From a virus: a stretch of DNA of 34,201 nucleotides. The notes under the pieces were generated by a model. The model made no database searches, was not told the origin of the DNA, and was given only the letters and a program-made list of their open reading frames with translations. The position numbers and the translations under genes were made by a program. The stretch lies in the IMG/VR virus record IMGVR_UViG_3300044730_001395, positions 1-34,201 of that record; one strand, written 5' to 3'. Positions 5,126-34,201 of this stretch are shown here, piece by piece. The stretch's first letter is position 1, and each line of letters starts with the position of its first letter.

Positions 5126-5301
5126 GATTCTTTCTCCTTCTTACGTAGCGAATCGACAAACTCGACGAGTGCTTCATAGACGAACTCTTCTAAGTAGATC
5201 GTATTGCTAGCTCCGTTCCCGTTATCTGTCACAAGCTTGATCATGTCACCCTCAAGCGAGGCATAAACCGAATCACCTAAATACGTTTTATGCTCTTCCA
5301 T
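5122..5301 (-). CDS. Conserved-type small phage protein (YLGDSVYA motif)
   Basis: The 59-residue product begins MEEHKTYLGDSVYASLEGDMIKL and continues TDNGNGASNTIYLEEFVYEALVEFV. The YLGDSVYA and TDNG-x-G-x-SNTI-x-LE signature is familiar from many phage and prophage small proteins of unknown role. GAGGGG lies five bases before ATG 5301, which overlaps the protease stop as TAATG. The codons upstream to 5319 are open but unlikely to be used. Confidence 0.65.
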   Translation of the reverse strand: MEEHKTYLGDSVYASLEGDMIKLVTDNGNGASNTIYLEEFVYEALVEFVDSLRKKEKES

Positions 5302-5933
5302 TATTTCCCCCTCAAACAATGCTTACCCTTGTGCTGTTCTGCTTCTGAAAAACTTACGCCGTTATTAACCAAGCTCAAAACTGCGCTGGCCATTATCGTT
5401 GGCTCTTTATAGTTATGATCTAGCCCCAAAGTGTGCCCTAGCTCGTGCATGATTGCGAAAAACGAATGGCTAAACCGCTCAGCACCTAACGAGTTGTGGG
5501 ACTGAACTACAGCAAGCGCCATGCTTAGCCCGTTGTATTTGCGCCAGCAGTAGTTGTTTCCCATGCCGACCATCCAGCGGTTCTGATTCTCATCAAGCAC
5601 CGGCGGCACATACACTGCGGCCCATCGCTTGCGGTTTCCGCGCCATATCCTGTGATAATAGTAAACCCTCTGATAGTAGTGGGAGAATAAAGAAAGCGTA
5701 GGCCCAAACGGGAAAACCTTTTGCTGTTCGATGCCCCTAATTCTTAAGCGCACTTTGCTTTTAAAATCAGCTTTCATGCTGGCCTTAAGCCACTTATTAA
5801 GCTGGCTAACTTTATCAAGTGGAAGTGAGATATCAGACTTTACGTAGTAGATATTCAGCGTGGGCCGCTCGGCCTCAGCAACCGAAATCAAAGTTAATGC
5901 AGCGGTTAAGGCAGCTAAGAATTTAATATTCAT
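5301..5933 (-). CDS. Secreted metzincin-type zinc metalloprotease
   Basis: The 210-residue product carries H163-E-L-G-H167-T-L-G170-L-D-H173, the full metzincin zinc-binding motif, followed by a Met-turn-like P-T-I-M181. The N-terminus is a clear Sec signal, MNIKFLAALTAALTLISVAEA, with a likely cut after Ala21, so the enzyme should act in the periplasm or outside. The metzincin clan includes matrixins and archaemetzincins; I do not assign a subfamily. ATG 5933 is preferred because it gives the signal peptide; the frame is open to 5996 with no better site. The SD is weak (GAG). Its start overlaps the end of a membrane coiled-coil gene and its stop overlaps the next start, so it is made as part of the early operon. 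Target unknown: host envelope protein, toxin activation, or superinfection control are possibilities. Confidence 0.8.
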   Translation of the reverse strand: MNIKFLAALTAALTLISVAEAERPTLNIYYVKSDISLPLDKVSQLNKWLKASMKADFKSKVRLRIRGIEQQKVFPFGPTLSLFSHYYQRVYYYHRIWRGNRKRWAAVYVPPVLDENQNRWMVGMGNNYCWRKYNGLSMALAVVQSHNSLGAERFSHSFFAIMHELGHTLGLDHNYKEPTIMASAVLSLVNNGVSFSEAEQHKGKHCLRGK

Positions 5934-6177
5934 CGTTGTTGCTCTGAAATCTACTGTCGCGGCCTGATTCATAGCCAGCATCGTAGCCTTCCTCATAAGC
6001 GACCTCAGTCGCTCTTTCTAAGTCGCTTTCTATCTCTTGTTTAAGCTGATGCAACTCTCCTTCTAGCTCTTCTTTAATGTGTTCAATTTCGCTGTTTAAG
6101 CGCAAAACCTCTTGCTTGAAATGCGCGGCCAAAAGTACAGCAGCCAAAATAATGAAAAGTGTTAATGCTTCAATCAT
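5923..6177 (-). CDS. Membrane-anchored coiled-coil protein
   Basis: The 84-residue product has an N-terminal membrane segment (ALTLFIILAAVLLAAHF) followed by a long charged coiled coil, SEIEHIKEELEGELHQLKQEIESDLERA, and an acidic Gly-Tyr tail YEEGYDAGYESGRD. GGAG lies about ten bases before ATG 6177, at the end of the upstream gene. It overlaps the metalloprotease start by 11 bases, which suggests that the two are made together. The topology recalls an inner-membrane spanin, but it lies in the early operon and its partner is a protease rather than a lipoprotein, so I do not call it a spanin. Confidence 0.55.
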   Translation of the reverse strand: MIEALTLFIILAAVLLAAHFKQEVLRLNSEIEHIKEELEGELHQLKQEIESDLERATEVAYEEGYDAGYESGRDSRFQSNNDEY

Positions 6178-6179
6178 AA

Positions 6180-6509
6180 CTATTCGTTCTCCCAGAAATT
6201 GCAGCGGCCTTGGGTGCTCGCGAGGGTCGCAGCGTTTCGCCCTGTTCGCGTCTTTCTCTTTCCGATCTCTCGAATCTGCCCGAGCTTCTTTAGCTCAGAA
6301 CACCTAGCGCTTGCCGTTTGGTGGCTAATGCCGAGCGCCATTTCGATTTCGTCGCAGGTGGCACCCAAAGCCCCACGCGACCGGATATAGTCGGAAACTC
6401 TCCGCCTTAACTCTCCAGCGCTGCCCACTACCGATCTAAAAGCATCACGGCTATTCTCGTTGCCCCCGTGGTTACGCTCGCAGATGTCGAAAAGACCTAT
6501 TTGCTTCAT
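6180..6509 (-). CDS. Winged helix-turn-helix DNA-binding protein
   Basis: The 109-residue product contains RRRVSDYIRSRGALGATCDEIEMALGISHQTASARCSELKKLGQI, split here as helix, turn and recognition helix, followed by a basic wing GKRKTRTGRNAATL. This is the winged-HTH pattern of small phage regulators in recombination and replication operons. AAGG lies six bases before ATG 6509. The gene begins just after a minus-strand terminator that separates it from recT, so it and the genes after it may depend on antitermination or a weak promoter. It probably tunes early or late transcription. Confidence 0.65.
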   Translation of the reverse strand: MKQIGLFDICERNHGGNENSRDAFRSVVGSAGELRRRVSDYIRSRGALGATCDEIEMALGISHQTASARCSELKKLGQIREIGKRKTRTGRNAATLASTQGRCNFWENE

Positions 6510-9823: not shown

Positions 9824-9857
9824 AAGGCTCTTGGGTTACTCTCCAAGGGCCTTTTTT
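9824..9857 (+). terminator. Plus-strand intrinsic terminator, antisense to the early operon
   Basis: AAGGCTCTTGG (9824-9834) pairs with CCAAGGGCCTT (9843-9853) as eleven bases including one U-G pair, with an eight-base loop, and is followed by a T-run to 9857 and GTTTG. In the minus-strand RNA the wobble becomes an A-C mismatch and no U-tract follows, so it works only rightward. No rightward gene lies upstream in this region. Confidence 0.65.
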
Positions 9858-9957: not shown

Positions 9958-10863
9958 CTAGTAAACCAATTTTATCGCGGGGCTATCTTCGACCTCTTTA
10001 GCCCTCTTATCGTAAACCCTGACCATTTCCTCGGTTAAGTGGCCTAGTGCATCGGCGGTCTCGCGGTCACTAAAGCCCATGGATTTTAATTTAGTGGCAA
10101 AGGTAGCCCGCGCACTATGCGGGGCGGCTTTTATCCCGAAAATGGCACAATATTTTTTAAATACCCGAACCAAGGTCAATTGGTCGATTCTGCCTCGTAC
10201 TTTCCCCGATGCGTAATAAAAAACGAAAAGCGGGTCAGTAGCATCAGCCCCCTCAGCTTTTCTCTGACTTATTAGCCTTGATATATAGGGCCTGGCGAAT
10301 TTAGCCACCACACGAACCTGCCTCCGGCCCGCCTTTGAATTTTTCAGCTCTAGGTACACAACACCCTTGGGGCTTACCTTAACGTCGCCCACAGCCAGCG
10401 CTATGGCCTCGCTGCGCCTAAGTCCCGCACCAAAAAGCACCGATAACATGGCCCTATCTCTTATCTCTTTTTTGCCGCGCCCCTCTGGGGCCTCTAGTAT
10501 TTTTTTGACAACAGAGAACGGAATTAGAACAGTTGGGCGCTTTTGTGTCTGCTGACGGCGCGAAATTGCGTATTTAACCGCCCTTAGAGGATTATTCTTT
10601 AAATAATCGAGCGCCATCAGGTGTTCACATACGCTATGAAGCGCGTGGAAGTGCACCAGAATTGTTTTATCGGCGTATTTTTTGCCATCGGGAGCAATCG
10701 CCAGCTTTAACCTCGCAAAGTACGCCAGCGCCTCCACTGCCCGTACTTTATTAAGAGGTTTACCTACAGACTCCTCAAAAATATCAATAATAGAGCGGTA
10801 TTGTTTTTTAGTATTTCCCGACTTCATGGCGAGAATTAATTCTATGGCGTCGTTTATCATCAT
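9958..10863 (-). CDS. int: Tyrosine-family integrase
   Basis: The 301-residue product has the full catalytic set of tyrosine recombinases: R149 in GAGLRRSE, H249-S-A-R252, H275 in LGHLTEEM and the nucleophile Y284 in VRVYDKR. The N-terminal 100 residues form the core-binding domain (NTKKQYRSIIDIF, then HALHSVCEHLMALDYLKNNP). Length is like XerC/D and short phage integrases, without a long arm-binding domain. It should insert the phage into the host chromosome, which makes the phage temperate. GGGGGG lies eight bases before ATG 10863 but sits in a hairpin (10870-10908). I could not identify attP; no excisionase is recognised. Confidence 0.9.
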   Translation of the reverse strand: MMINDAIELILAMKSGNTKKQYRSIIDIFEESVGKPLNKVRAVEALAYFARLKLAIAPDGKKYADKTILVHFHALHSVCEHLMALDYLKNNPLRAVKYAISRRQQTQKRPTVLIPFSVVKKILEAPEGRGKKEIRDRAMLSVLFGAGLRRSEAIALAVGDVKVSPKGVVYLELKNSKAGRRQVRVVAKFARPYISRLISQRKAEGADATDPLFVFYYASGKVRGRIDQLTLVRVFKKYCAIFGIKAAPHSARATFATKLKSMGFSDRETADALGHLTEEMVRVYDKRAKEVEDSPAIKLVY

Positions 10864-11322: not shown

Positions 11323-11541
11323 CTAATTTAAAACTTTGGCCAAAACCTCAAGCTGCCTCTTCTGTGCCGGTGTCGGCTCCCCTGCCCTTTGTAGCTGTTC
11401 GTTATAGTCGCGCAGCTTCATGGCTAGGCACCGAGCTAAAATCATGCGCTCGGCTGTATAGGCGGCCCTGTATGCCTCGCGAATCTCTTCCTGTACCTGA
11501 AGCAATGTCTCAGGGTTTCTCACATCGATTTTATTTTTCAT
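11323..11541 (-). CDS. First leftward early gene, helical protein
   Basis: The 72-residue product begins MKNKIDVRNPETLLQVQEEIREAYRAAYTAERMIL and is helical throughout, ending in a second helix PAQKRQLEVLAKVL. GGAGGG is six bases before ATG 11541; the frame is open to 11562 but has no ribosome site there. It is the first gene after the leftward switch promoter, the position of cro-like or excisionase genes, yet no HTH is visible. Function unknown. Confidence 0.55.
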   Translation of the reverse strand: MKNKIDVRNPETLLQVQEEIREAYRAAYTAERMILARCLAMKLRDYNEQLQRAGEPTPAQKRQLEVLAKVLN

Positions 11542-11556
11542 TTTATGCCCTCCATA

Positions 11557-11592
11557 ACTCAAGTTTGTTTGACTAGTGAATGCCTCTTGAGT
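11557..11592. promoter_or_regulatory. Palindromic operator over the rightward -35 box
   Basis: ACTCAAG (11557-11563) and CTTGAGT (11586-11592) are arms centred exactly on ACTAGT (11572-11577), which lies in TTGACTAGTGAA. The nested symmetry, 36 bases with 12 of 18 positions paired, suggests a dimeric repressor site. A second ACTAGT centre lies 49 bases away, within CACTAGTCAA at 11620-11629, an exact inverted copy of TTGACTAGTG. A third partial copy, ATTCACTA, is at 11635-11642 just before the regulator's ATG. Confidence 0.6.
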
Positions 11593-11597
11593 ATGAT
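11569..11597 (+). promoter_or_regulatory. Rightward switch promoter
   Basis: TTGACT (11569-11574) and TATGAT (11592-11597) are separated by 17 bases, matching the sigma70 consensus at five of six positions in each box. The start of transcription should be near 11604, which makes ATG 11643 the first usable start of the regulator gene. The -35 box lies within the ACTAGT operator. Confidence 0.75.
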
Positions 11598-11600
11598 GTA

Positions 11601-11629
11601 AGTATCGTCAACAACGATGCACTAGTCAA
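11601..11629 (-). promoter_or_regulatory. Leftward switch promoter
   Basis: On the minus strand TTGACT (11624-11629) and GATACT (11601-11606) are 17 bases apart; the -10 box is weaker than that of the rightward promoter. Transcription would start near 11594, giving a leader of about 53 bases for the gene at 11541. The two -10 boxes are only three bases apart and point at each other's start, so both promoters cannot be occupied together. Confidence 0.6.
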
Positions 11630-11642
11630 GGGAAATTCACTA

Positions 11643-11900
11643 ATGAATGAAAAAAAGTTAGATGTAAGTCTGTCTGTTATGAAATTAGCTAAAATAGTTA
11701 GGGAAACCGCAGGGTTGAACCCATGGCAGATGTACAAGCAGATGGGCAAAAAGAGCGTGCAGGCTTATTTAAGCCTCGAACGCTCCGCAAAGCGCATAAC
11801 ATTAGAGGATTTTTTCGCGCTAGAACGTATCTGGCTTGAAGCGGGGCAGAGTAAATCCGCATTCGAGGAGTTGGCGAGGAAATGTGCACAAAAAAAATAA
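11643..11900 (+). CDS. Small helix-turn-helix regulator, repressor or Cro-like
   Basis: The 85-residue product contains VMKLAKIVRETAGLNPWQMYK and then GKKSVQAYLSLERSAKRITLEDFFALERIW, which fits an XRE-type HTH (the SLE-x-S-x-x-x-I end of the recognition region is characteristic). It should bind the ACTAGT repeats just upstream as a dimer. The open frame extends to 11580, but that codon lies upstream of the predicted transcription start; ATG 11643 has AAGGGAA eight bases before it. It is followed after nine bases by the secreted protein gene. With only one regulator visible here, it could be the CI-type repressor although it is short and lacks a peptidase domain. Confidence 0.65.
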   Translation: MNEKKLDVSLSVMKLAKIVRETAGLNPWQMYKQMGKKSVQAYLSLERSAKRITLEDFFALERIWLEAGQSKSAFEELARKCAQKK

Positions 11901-11909
11901 AGGAGACTT

Positions 11910-12320
11910 ATGCGAAAGATTATTGCCCTGTTAGCTCTTATTCCTACAATCGCCAGCGCTGAATTTATTCCAGTCGGTTGTTATGTAGCCGATTATTACC
12001 GAACCGACCCATGCTGGTATTCAAATAGCGCATTTTACCAATGGACTGCCTACGATAATCAAAACACGGCGGTGCTAATATATGGCAGCCCAGTCGCTGC
12101 GATAATTCAGAATGCAGCTAATGAGCAGACCGCAAAGAACGCCTGCTTGAATAATCTCGATAACGCAATTATTGCCTATCAGTCGGAATCAAAACGAGCA
12201 GATGATAATTATAACTTTGCCATTTATTACCAGACTGAATTTAATAAACAGCTCAGTTACGCTAAGAAGCTAAAGAAAGCCTGCGGCAGTAAGTGCAAGA
12301 AAATAAAGGCACCAAAATAA
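11910..12320 (+). CDS. Secreted cysteine-containing protein co-transcribed with the regulator
   Basis: The 136-residue product starts with a Sec signal MRKIIALLALIPTIASA. The mature protein has five cysteines (VGCYVADYY, DPCWY, NACLNN, KKACGSKCKK), a central helical region with many Asn and Ala, and a lysine-rich C-terminus. AGGAGA lies just before ATG, downstream of the regulator's stop, so both genes form one unit from the rightward switch promoter. A gene expressed with a repressor would be on during lysogeny, so superinfection exclusion or lysogenic conversion is likely. No family is recognised. Confidence 0.6.
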   Translation: MRKIIALLALIPTIASAEFIPVGCYVADYYRTDPCWYSNSAFYQWTAYDNQNTAVLIYGSPVAAIIQNAANEQTAKNACLNNLDNAIIAYQSESKRADDNYNFAIYYQTEFNKQLSYAKKLKKACGSKCKKIKAPK

Positions 12321-12341
12321 AAACGGGGCATAAAGCCCCGT
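12313..12341 (-). terminator. Intrinsic terminator between converging genes
   Basis: ACGGGGC (12323-12329) and GCCCCGT (12335-12341) form a perfect seven-base stem with a five-base loop. On the minus strand it is followed by a TTTTATTTT tract, so it ends the leftward transcript of the gene at 12369-12593. On the plus strand no U-tract follows, although the hairpin may still help end the regulator unit. Confidence 0.75.
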
Positions 12342-12368
12342 CCCTCCCTGCACGAGAAGGTAATTCTG

Positions 12369-12593
12369 TTAAAGCGCCAAAGCTTGGTCGGCCTTCTGGT
12401 CTACAACCTGCGCGGCATCACGTACTAGCACAGCTAATGCGGCGATAGCATCAAGCTCAGCCTGTGTGAATACAGCACCGCCAGCTTGTAGGCCCTGAAT
12501 CTTCACCACAATCGCGTCCATCTTGCTATTCACAAGACCGACCAACATTTGGACAGTTCCAAGCACATCAAGAGTTTCTTGTACAGTTGCCAT
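12369..12593 (-). CDS. Small helical protein, isolated leftward gene
   Basis: The 74-residue product begins MATVQETLDVLGTVQMLVGLVNSKMDAI and continues with a second helical part FTQAELDAIAALAVLVRDAAQVVDQKADQAL, rich in Ala, Val and Leu. It looks like a small coiled-coil protein; no signal peptide or basic region is seen. AAGGA lies about ten bases before ATG 12593. It stands alone, leftward, between the regulator unit and the terminase genes, with its own terminator, which suggests a separately controlled accessory gene or a small virion protein. Confidence 0.5.
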   Translation of the reverse strand: MATVQETLDVLGTVQMLVGLVNSKMDAIVVKIQGLQAGGAVFTQAELDAIAALAVLVRDAAQVVDQKADQALAL

Positions 12594-12905: not shown

Positions 12906-13214
12906 ATGGCGCTCTTCCAAAAAGGTAAATCAGGGAATCCGGCAGGACGACCGAAAGAACTCGCAGAGGTCAAAGCCTTCGCGCGGGAATTTGGTCGTGA
13001 AGCTATTGAGACGCTTGCGAGATTAATGCGCGAGGGCGACCCGAGAACGCAAGTTTGCGCGGCTAAGGAATTGCTCGATAGAGGATTCGGGCGGCCTGAA
13101 CAGTCCGTGGATGTTACCGGCGAGGTCATAAAATACGTCGTCAGATTGCCAGCGACTCAAGCGAACACAAGCGAATGGGTGCAGAATCACGCCCCGAAAA
13201 CAATCGAACAATAA
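12906..13214 (+). CDS. Terminase small subunit-like protein (DUF5681 type)
   Basis: The 102-residue product starts MALFQKGKSGNPAGRPKE, the GKSGNP-x-GRPK signature of DUF5681 proteins that precede large terminase genes, followed by helices AFAREFGREAIETLARLM and AAKELLDRGFGRPEQ. The position directly before, and overlapping, the large terminase supports a role in choosing and presenting DNA for packaging. AGGA lies a few bases before ATG 12906. DUF5681 members are short, so the length is normal. Confidence 0.75.
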   Translation: MALFQKGKSGNPAGRPKELAEVKAFAREFGREAIETLARLMREGDPRTQVCAAKELLDRGFGRPEQSVDVTGEVIKYVVRLPATQANTSEWVQNHAPKTIEQ

Positions 13215-14707: not shown

Positions 14708-16933
14708 ATGCAGCTAACCGAGAAACAGACCCCCGAGGAGCGCGAGACAGCCGAAGAGGCTGAAGCCGTTGCGCAGTGGCTTACTGAAATTCAGCTCGCG
14801 GAAAAGGATAAATATTATTCTGACTGGGTGAAGCGCTGCGAAAAGATAGAGCGGCGCTATAGGGATGAGCGGGCATTTGATTTGCTTGAATCAGAGAACC
14901 GCCAGAAGCGTTTCAATATCCTCTGGTCGAATGTTCAAACCCTTCAGCCAGCTATCTATTCGCGCCTTCCTAAGCCCGAAGTACAGCGCCGATTCAAAGA
15001 TTCTGACCCTCTCGCACGTTCAAGCGCTCAGATGCTAGAGCGGGCTATAGAATTTAACATGCAGAGCTTTGACCTTGACTCTGTGCTCGTGCACTGCCGC
15101 GACGATTATTTACTCTATGGGCGTGCTCAAGCCTGGCTTCGTTATGTGCCCGAATTCGGCGCTATGACCGATGAAATGGGGCAGCCTGTCATGGGCGAAG
15201 ATGGAAAGCCAGCAGAGCGCATAGTAAGCGAGCAGGTAGTGGTGGATTTCCTCGACCACAAAGATTTCTTACATAACCCTGCCCGCACCGAGGAGGATGT
15301 TAGGTGGAAAGCGCGGCGTGTCCACATGAACCGCTCGGAGCTTGAGACTAGGTTCGGGAAAGACAAGGCCAAAGAAATTACGCTTGATTACGTGCCCGAG
15401 CACCTTGAAAAGCGGGATGTGACCAACGACGCAGCACAGGAGCAGTACAAGAAAGCCTGCGTGTGGGAAATCTGGAACAAGCCCACAATGATGGTCTATT
15501 GGGTAGCAAAAGGCTATTCGCTTTTCCTTGATAAACAAGAGGACCCGCTTGGCCTCCGTGGTTTCTTCCCATGTCCTAAGCCTTTGCTCGGCATAACAAC
15601 CACCAAGACCATGATACCAGTGCCTGAGTTCGCGCTGTATCAGGACCAGGCCGATGAGCTTGACGAGGTTACAAGCAGAATCTCCTTACTCACGAGGGCG
15701 CTGCGTGTGGCTGGTGTTTACAACGCTAGTCGGTCCGAACTTGCTCGCCTCCTCTCCGAGGGCGTGGAAAATGAGCTGATACCCGTGGAAGATTGGCCAA
15801 CCTTCGCGCAGGGGAATGGACTAAAGGGCGCTATGGATTTCCTGCCGATTCAGGATATCATAACAACCCTCATGCAGCTCTACGATGCCCGCGAGCGCAT
15901 CAAGAATGAAATCTATGAGCTGACAGGAATCGCCGACATCATTAGGGGCCAAACATCAGCCAGCGAGACAGCTACAGCCCAGCAGATTAAAGGGCAGTTT
16001 GCTACTCTGAGACTTGCCGACCGGCAGCGAGCTATTCAAAAGTTTGCCCGCGATATTGTTGAGCTAATGGGCGAGCTAATAGCCGAGAAGTTCCAAGCCG
16101 AGACTCTGGCGGCAATGTCTGGCTTACAAAACCTTGACCAAGCCACTCAAGCCAACTTCGAGGCAGCGCGGGCACTGTTAGCCGATGACGTGCTTAGAAA
16201 CTACCGAATCGACATAGAGACAGATTCGACCATTGCGATCGACGAGAATCAGGACAAGCAAAGCCGCATTGAATTCATGCAGGCGGTAACTCCTTTCATT
16301 GACAAGTCGATGCAGGTAATTCAAAGCACCCCAGCGTTTGCGCCTCTAATGACTGAACTCCTCATGTTTACCGTACGCGGCTTTAAGGCAGGGCGCGGGC
16401 TAGAGGCAACCTTAGAGCAAGCCATGGTGCAGGCGCAGCAAATGGCGCAGCAAGCCCAGCAGCAGCCTCAGCAGCCCGACCCGCAGATGCTAAAGCTTCA
16501 AGCCGATATGCAAATGAAACAGGCCCAGCTCCAGTTTGAGCAAGAAAAGGCAGCAGCGAAGATGCAGCTAGAGCAGCAAAAAGCGCAAATAGATTTGCAG
16601 CTCGCTCAGGCCACTCAGGCACTCGACTTACAAAAAGCGCAGTTTAACGCAGCTATTGAGCAAGAACGACTACGCGGCACTATGGAGTTACAAGCTGAAA
16701 AGGTTCGCGCTGATATGGCGCTCAAGGCTATGCAGGCTCCAATGCAAGAGCAGCTAGCCACCATGCGCGACGTGGAAGAGCCTAGAGTTACAACATCACA
16801 GCCCATAATTGTGAACGTCGATGCACGCCAGCCAGTTAGAAAACTTGCGAATATCGTGCGCGACCAGAACGGCCAAATGCAGGACATCATAATCACTGAA
16901 GCGCCTAACGAGGAGCAGCTGCCCGCTGTGTAA
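14708..16933 (+). CDS. Portal protein, P22-type
   Basis: At 741 residues this matches the size of P22-like portals. Recognisable parts are RRYRDERAFDLLESENRQKRFNILWSN near the N-terminus, the DHKDFLHNPARTEEDVRW region, and YELTGIADIIRGQTSASETATAQQIKGQ with the following helices, each split over the standard order. The C-terminal 150 residues are Gln- and Ala-rich helix, as in the long barrel of P22-type portals. Twelve copies should form the vertex through which terminase pumps DNA. ATG 14708 has no strong ribosome site and follows a probable terminator. Confidence 0.85.
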   Translation: MQLTEKQTPEERETAEEAEAVAQWLTEIQLAEKDKYYSDWVKRCEKIERRYRDERAFDLLESENRQKRFNILWSNVQTLQPAIYSRLPKPEVQRRFKDSDPLARSSAQMLERAIEFNMQSFDLDSVLVHCRDDYLLYGRAQAWLRYVPEFGAMTDEMGQPVMGEDGKPAERIVSEQVVVDFLDHKDFLHNPARTEEDVRWKARRVHMNRSELETRFGKDKAKEITLDYVPEHLEKRDVTNDAAQEQYKKACVWEIWNKPTMMVYWVAKGYSLFLDKQEDPLGLRGFFPCPKPLLGITTTKTMIPVPEFALYQDQADELDEVTSRISLLTRALRVAGVYNASRSELARLLSEGVENELIPVEDWPTFAQGNGLKGAMDFLPIQDIITTLMQLYDARERIKNEIYELTGIADIIRGQTSASETATAQQIKGQFATLRLADRQRAIQKFARDIVELMGELIAEKFQAETLAAMSGLQNLDQATQANFEAARALLADDVLRNYRIDIETDSTIAIDENQDKQSRIEFMQAVTPFIDKSMQVIQSTPAFAPLMTELLMFTVRGFKAGRGLEATLEQAMVQAQQMAQQAQQQPQQPDPQMLKLQADMQMKQAQLQFEQEKAAAKMQLEQQKAQIDLQLAQATQALDLQKAQFNAAIEQERLRGTMELQAEKVRADMALKAMQAPMQEQLATMRDVEEPRVTTSQPIIVNVDARQPVRKLANIVRDQNGQMQDIIITEAPNEEQLPAV

Positions 16934-33746: not shown

Positions 33747-34201
33747 ATGTTCGGTTTAGATTATCTAGGACTTGGTTCGAAGCATTGGAAAGTGGCCCCT
33801 TCTCTTGAGGCTTTCCCTCAAGGCTGGGCTTTGGGCGCTTTTGCTAGAACATTTGGCGACGCGCTTCCTAATGTCAGAAAGTTTTTAGACTCTGGCAAAG
33901 TATCGGCTTTTCGCTTGCAAGCTTGGTGGTCGAACGCGCATAAGATTGCGCCTATAAAGTACTTAAAGGAAGAGCTACCAAGGTGGGAAAAGTTAGCGCA
34001 GGCTTACCCGCATGTGAAATTCTATATTTCTCACTCGTGCGAATATTCGGAACAAAACAAAGCGGAAATAAAAAAGCGAGTTGACCTAGTGCAAGAGCTT
34101 TGCCCCTCTTGCGTGGTCGTGCAGTGTCCTATGCATTCGCCGGTTATTCCAGGAATAGGTAAAGTTGAACAGCACGGAACAAACTCAAAGCCAAAACCAG
34201 G
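33747..34201 (+). CDS. Possible TIM-barrel glycoside-hydrolase-like protein (N-terminal part; continues at 128-722)
   Basis: ATG 33747 begins seven bases after the lysozyme stop and the frame stays open to the window end, where it joins the frame at 1-722 through the 127-base overlap. The joined protein is 349 residues. This part starts MFGLDYLGLGSKHWKVAP and has EAFPQGWALGAFARTFGDALP, KFYISHSCEYSEQ and CPSCVVVQCPMHSP. The alternating strand-helix pattern and the FYISHSCEY strand suggest a sugar-hydrolase barrel, but catalytic residues cannot be named with confidence. It is between a lysozyme and a holin-like gene. Confidence 0.65.
   Translation, partial: MFGLDYLGLGSKHWKVAPSLEAFPQGWALGAFARTFGDALPNVRKFLDSGKVSAFRLQAWWSNAHKIAPIKYLKEELPRWEKLAQAYPHVKFYISHSCEYSEQNKAEIKKRVDLVQELCPSCVVVQCPMHSPVIPGIGKVEQHGTNSKPKP
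34075..34201. repeat. Terminal direct repeat, right copy
   Basis: This is the exact copy of bases 1-127. The join places 34201 next to 128 and restores one uninterrupted coding sequence. It supports a circular or circularly permuted genome. Confidence 0.95.

Follow-up and report, generated by a model that had tools for sequence, protein, structure and literature searches.

The DNA analysed, hereafter the window, is a virus record of 34,201 bases with an exact 127-base direct terminal repeat (1–127 and 34075–34201). With such a repeat the record probably represents the whole genome of a phage, assembled circularly, at ~34.07 kb (34,074 bp). Its capsid (49–64% identity) and portal (33–38%) have distant kin in the Myxococcus phages Mx8/Mx9, Stenotrophomonas phage BUCT555 and Bradyrhizobium phage ppBjS10J-1. 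The locus of interest is a gap of 101 bp (11542–11642), which parts a leftward early operon from a rightward gene for an 85-aa protein. The operon starts at 11541 with a 72-aa ORF and runs leftward through genes for a lipoprotein and a tyrosine integrase; a helicase-loader-like gene, a gene for a RecE-like/YqaJ nuclease, RecT and others follow. For the product of the first ORF, a 72-aa helical protein (P0002; 11323–11541, minus strand), the model shows a long helix and a short one and no helix-turn-helix (HTH), and family profile searches (Pfam, PHROGs, NCBIfam) gave no match. The tyrosine integrase (9958–10863, minus strand) matched Pfam PF00589 with an E-value of 1.3e-21 and phrog_1 with 4e-31, and these profile matches indicate a temperate phage. 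As is characteristic of temperate-phage immunity regions, the integrase adjoins the putative control region within the same genome.

Some further features were seen among the leftward genes. Between the integrase and the replication gene, just before the Shine-Dalgarno sequence of the latter, a strong 12-pair hairpin followed by a T-run is found on the plus strand (9824–9853), in a part of the genome where all genes run leftward. A 231-aa predicted zinc metalloprotease (5301–5996, minus strand) carries the motif HELGHTLGLDH and a signal-like segment close to its N terminus, and matched Peptidase_M10 barely above the cut-off.

Rightward from 11643 the 85-aa gene is followed directly and in the same direction by a gene for a 136-aa protein (11910–12320, plus strand), and the late genes start at 12906. 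The 136-aa protein has a signal-peptide-like N terminus and found only itself in IMG/VR; its position suggests a possible role in lysogenic conversion or superinfection exclusion. At the end of this gene there is a good leftward terminator-like hairpin (12319–12345, minus strand), which lies behind a 74-aa minus-strand gene (12369–12593). Rfam and tRNA scans gave no matches.

The gap contains one predicted promoter for each direction. The rightward promoter PR (11569–11597, plus strand) consists of TTGACT (11569–11574), a 17-nt spacer and TATGAT (11592–11597), with a predicted start at ~11604. The leftward promoter PL (11601–11629, minus strand) consists of TTGACT (11629–11624), a 17-nt spacer and GATACT (11606–11601), with a predicted start at ~11594. 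The two −10 boxes are 3 bases apart, and all elements are found where a first-pass annotation of this DNA had placed them. PR agrees with the consensus at 10 of 12 positions and PL at 9 of 12. Both −35 boxes reach 5 of 6 with the optimal spacer of 17 nt; the −10 box of PL (GATACT) is weak. PR is accompanied by a Shine-Dalgarno-like AAGGGA (11628–11633) and PL by a strong Shine-Dalgarno sequence, GGAGGG, ahead of the ATG at 11541.

The starts, which are sequence predictions only, lie ~10 bp apart (11604 on the plus and 11594 on the minus strand), compared to the 7–25 bp that define bidirectional promoters. Promoters of this kind are common, as is bidirectional initiation from −10 symmetry (PMC10268837). 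The predicted transcripts would be divergent rather than convergent and would not overlap, while the polymerase on either promoter would cover the other one. Very probably the gap holds two overlapping promoters that can be used by only one polymerase at a time. The mutual exclusion that had been proposed earlier follows from this geometry, but it would shape expression only if the promoters are strong (PMC12825309): In the five E. coli bidirectional promoters tested, basal activity did not suffice for polymerases to compete, and the directions competed only once one of them was strongly activated (PMC12825309).

Both −35 boxes lie, as previously described, within an exact 10-nt inverted repeat (TTGACTAGTG at 11569–11578 and CACTAGTCAA at 11620–11629). 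Among 2000 dinucleotide shuffles of the gap, 6 contained an exact inverted repeat of at least 10 nt, a figure that, like all others given here for the repeats and the promoter pair, comes from a test picked after the pattern had been seen and serves as a guide only. The repeat forms part of two operator-like sites. O1 (TTGACTAGTGAA, 11569–11580, centre 11574.5) lies over the −35 box of PR and at ~+15 to +26 of PL, and O2 (TGCACTAGTCAA, 11618–11629, centre 11623.5) lies over the −35 box of PL and at ~+15 to +26 of PR. The two sites mirror each other about position 11599, and the two promoters share this axis. Two features were absent from the first-pass annotation. One is a third operator-like site, O3 (TTCACTAATGAA, 11636–11647), which spans the start codon of the 85-aa gene and is located upstream of PL at a distance of 18 bp from O2; in the repeat search TTCACTAATGAATG at 11636–11649 was 86% like TTGACTAGTGAATG at 11569. 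The other is a 30-nt inverted repeat (11564–11593/11623–11652) with 22 of 30 matches (73%), where the best of 400 shuffles reached 20.

Out of 500 shuffles of the region, not one contained three non-overlapping 12-mers within two mismatches of a reference. Elsewhere in the genome three such 12-mers occur only in a portal-gene stretch near 16392–16539, and outside the gap the genome contains no 12-mer within one mismatch of TTSACTAGTSAA. Half-sites of the form TTGAST number 4 in the gap vs 0.1 expected. The symmetry of the gap is not due to chance.

Among the six half-sites of O1–O3 (AGTGAATG, AGTCAAAC, AGTCAAGG, AGTGCATC, AATGAATG and AGTGAATT) only two have a C at the fourth place, namely those that double as −35 boxes. 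The −35 box TTGACT reads AGTCAA on the opposite strand, and one sequence appears to do two jobs, as operator half and as −35 box; such a double role would account for the exact inverted repeat. For the putative binding site a 12-mer resembling TTSAYTARTSAA is the more apt description; its half-site is AGTGAAT, which becomes AGTCAA where it also serves as a −35 box. ACTAGT had been put forward as the site of the regulator. By itself this hexamer is not enriched (7 in the genome vs 4.5 expected) and was rejected as the signal. What stands of the proposal are the repeated operator-like sites over both −35 boxes, while the 12-mer provides a better fit and the sites are three rather than two.

The candidate repressor is the 85-aa protein (P0001; 11643–11900, plus strand). 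A single-sequence model gave a five-helix Cro/C1-like fold (helices 12–23, 27–34, 39–48, 54–66 and 71–83; pLDDT 72, pTM 0.63). Most Foldseek matches were to controller proteins of restriction-modification systems, to XRE repressors and to HTH proteins of phages, with probabilities of ~1, TM values of ~0.5–0.73 and E-values of 0.005–0.1, none of them below 0.001. Pfam, PHROGs and NCBIfam yielded no HTH family match, including none to a Cro/C1-type (XRE) profile. No usable homologue turned up in phages, in plasmids, among 18 relative records or in 398 genomes belonging to one phylum; two weak genome matches, one to part of a 2449-aa frame and the other to an ORF near an RsuA-like pseudouridine synthase, were taken as chance. 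With moderate confidence the protein can be regarded, from its model, as of Cro/C1 type.

The operator-like sites could instead serve another regulator, such that the 85-aa gene would merely be controlled from the gap. The 72-aa protein or a host repressor might take this role, or a second candidate DNA-binding regulator in the leftward early operon: a 109-aa winged-helix protein (6180–6509, minus strand) with a MarR-like HTH, which matched phrog_1123 with an E-value of 9e-11 and phrog_2440, a 'transcriptional regulator', with 2e-4. It is however the 85-aa gene that adjoins the gap, has its start codon inside O3 and is modelled with a Cro/C1 fold. Small HTH genes adjoining such gaps usually regulate them, and we regard another regulator as unlikely. 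The same two leftward proteins bear on the earlier view that the system is simpler than a lambda-type switch: The regulator gene is indeed short, but the winged-helix candidate and the 72-aa helical neighbour leave this view unsupported.

In a promoter scan of the phage genome PR and PL formed the sole overlapping divergent pair. Overlapping pairs with a summed score of at least 19 arose in 0.22% of the shuffles of the 101-bp gap; whole shuffled genomes contained on average 0.81 overlapping divergent pairs at any score and 0.28 at a score of at least 19. Given these genome-wide rates, it is the position in an early divergent gap that makes the pair convincing. Conceivably only one promoter is real, the other being a by-product of symmetric operators and −10 symmetry, which would leave a simple autoregulated repressor operator. 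This would be in agreement with the poor −10 box and the 9 of 12 matches of PL, with consensus promoter counts around the gap that do not exceed those of shuffles, and with reports that −10 symmetry commonly gives bidirectional initiation (PMC10268837) at an often low basal activity (PMC12825309). A single promoter is nonetheless distinctly unlikely, as a gene with a Shine-Dalgarno sequence is present on each side of the gap, both −35 boxes are good and optimally spaced, and the scan found no promoter-like site in the gap besides PR and PL.

O1 is the most palindromic of the three sites and sits within an outer palindrome (11557–11592) with the arms ACTCAAG (11557–11563) and CTTGAGT (11586–11592), whose centre at 11574.5 coincides with that of the left ACTAGT. 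Of the 322 palindromic hexamers in the genome this ACTAGT is the only one with exact symmetric arms of at least 7 nt within 25 nt, which bears out its previously noted central position. The arms could act as additional half-sites (ACTCAAG vs AGTCAAG), or they could form a stem at the 5' end of the leftward mRNA. The latter reading, an RNA element that would not be part of the operator though compatible with a switch, is very unlikely: While the arms would pair in the predicted leftward transcript just ahead of the Shine-Dalgarno sequence, the fold of −8 kcal/mol (z −0.8 to −1.0) was equalled by 30–39 of 200 shuffles and had no Rfam match, such that an RNA hairpin was rejected as folding not above chance.

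In IMG/VR no divergent relative of the regulator, the 136-aa secreted protein or the integrase was found for a conservation test. The only other copies detected in this database are fragments, L002 identical over 5550 bp and L004 with one difference in 4328 (99.98%); being identical or nearly so, they add nothing on conservation. The exact operator pair occurs on four other IMG/VR contigs. It was rejected as a sign of related switches, since L051 and L053 carry it inside coding genes; L050 and L052 share the same 50-base span with L051 and were on that ground taken as the same chance match. In two structural relatives, L006 and Bradyrhizobium phage ppBjS10J-1, the switch region contains two divergent genes of HTH or HTH-like type. 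The promoter scan detected no overlapping promoter pair in either region, so the geometry is not common to these two relatives.

Repeat statistics, geometry, the adjacent Cro/C1-like fold, the integrase in the leftward operon and the Shine-Dalgarno sequences on both sides together support a genetic switch. We consider it fairly probable that the gap 11542–11642 controls the choice between lysis and lysogeny in a temperate phage, with the 85-aa protein acting as repressor of both the leftward operon and its own gene. In this scheme, for which we infer promoter activity, binding, the order of site filling and lysogeny, PL would drive the leftward early genes (72-aa ORF, lipoprotein, integrase and perhaps the replication and recombination genes), and PR would drive the Cro/C1-like repressor and the 136-aa secreted protein. 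The repressor, probably a dimer, would bind the three related palindromic sites. Filling of O2, helped by its neighbour O3, would shut the leftward operon, while filling of O1 would limit the repressor's own synthesis. The preferred order would be cooperative binding to O2 and O3 first, closing PL, followed at higher concentration by O1, limiting PR. Since the promoters would share a melting region, the polymerase could open only one at a time, and repression of PL would also remove the competitor of PR.

A dimer on O1 or O2 could hamper both directions. Due to their mirror symmetry about the promoter axis, these two sites cannot alone favour one direction, such that any asymmetry would have to stem from O3, from promoter strength (10 of 12 for PR, 9 of 12 for PL) or from another protein. 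What speaks against the preferred order is the palindromy of O1, the highest among the three sites, which would favour self-repression before repression of PL.

The logic of such a switch is already known from the pLS20 promoters Pc/Pr, from bidirectional promoters and from lambda- and P2-type switches. In lambda-type switches a Cro/C1-fold protein has three operators, located between divergent genes. The phage resembles them in its three operator-like sites, its Cro/C1-fold candidate and its divergent genes. A divergent cro-like gene sharing the operators was not found, the first leftward gene being modelled without HTH. Lambdoid promoters are back-to-back and the repressor and Cro share operators (PMC7498355), whereas here the promoters overlap and a single Cro/C1-like gene adjoins the gap. 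P2-like phages possess face-to-face promoters 40–60 bp apart with convergent transcripts (PMC7498355). With P2/186-type switches the phage would share lytic and lysogenic promoters opposed on a short stretch and a small first lytic gene (PMC7498355); in contrast, its predicted starts diverge ~10 bp apart without transcript overlap, and no Cox/Apl-like protein was found in this phage. The phi13/TP901-1 CI-MOR switch likewise has divergent promoters and three CI operators (OR, OL, OD), though its CI has extra domains and MOR as a partner (PMC8516035), while the 72-aa leftward protein shows no detectable kinship to the families searched. The commonest E. coli and Salmonella bidirectional promoters also have opposite-strand starts within 7–25 bp, but they share one −10 box with starts 18 bp apart (PMC10268837, PMC12825309), unlike the two separate −10 hexamers and two good −35 boxes found here.

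The predicted geometry matches neither the lambdoid nor the P2 scheme and appears closest to pLS20. On this plasmid the divergent promoters Pc and Pr overlap, the polymerase itself is part of the switch and the regulator Rco(LS20) has multiple roles (PMC4207663); a switch built from overlapping divergent promoters and a multi-role regulator is an established design. The phage, judged by its predicted promoters, fits this layout: a regulator gene on one side, a large operon on the other and operator-like sites over or beside the overlapping promoters. In pLS20, by contrast, repeated CAGTGAAA motifs make up two operators that lie 75 bp apart, DNA looping is involved, and Rco activates its own promoter at low concentration (PMC4207663); the phage has three short palindromic sites that all fall within 80 bp. 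It is a tentative and rather doubtful possibility that the switch represents a third geometry besides the back-to-back and the face-to-face one, in which the promoters share a melting region, a single 85-aa repressor without known relatives is in charge and the decision depends essentially on polymerase exclusion; these comparisons extend to the systems named above, and we do not claim a new class.

By sequence evidence the control region is real, in part as the first-pass annotation had it, and known in kind. If our reading is right, it would be a very short phage decision region of ~100 bp with one small protein. It would then offer a clean natural test of whether polymerase exclusion and one autoregulated repressor can hold two states, and the mirror symmetry of O1 and O2 would provide a sharp prediction for it, namely that O3, promoter strength or another protein sets the bias between the two directions.
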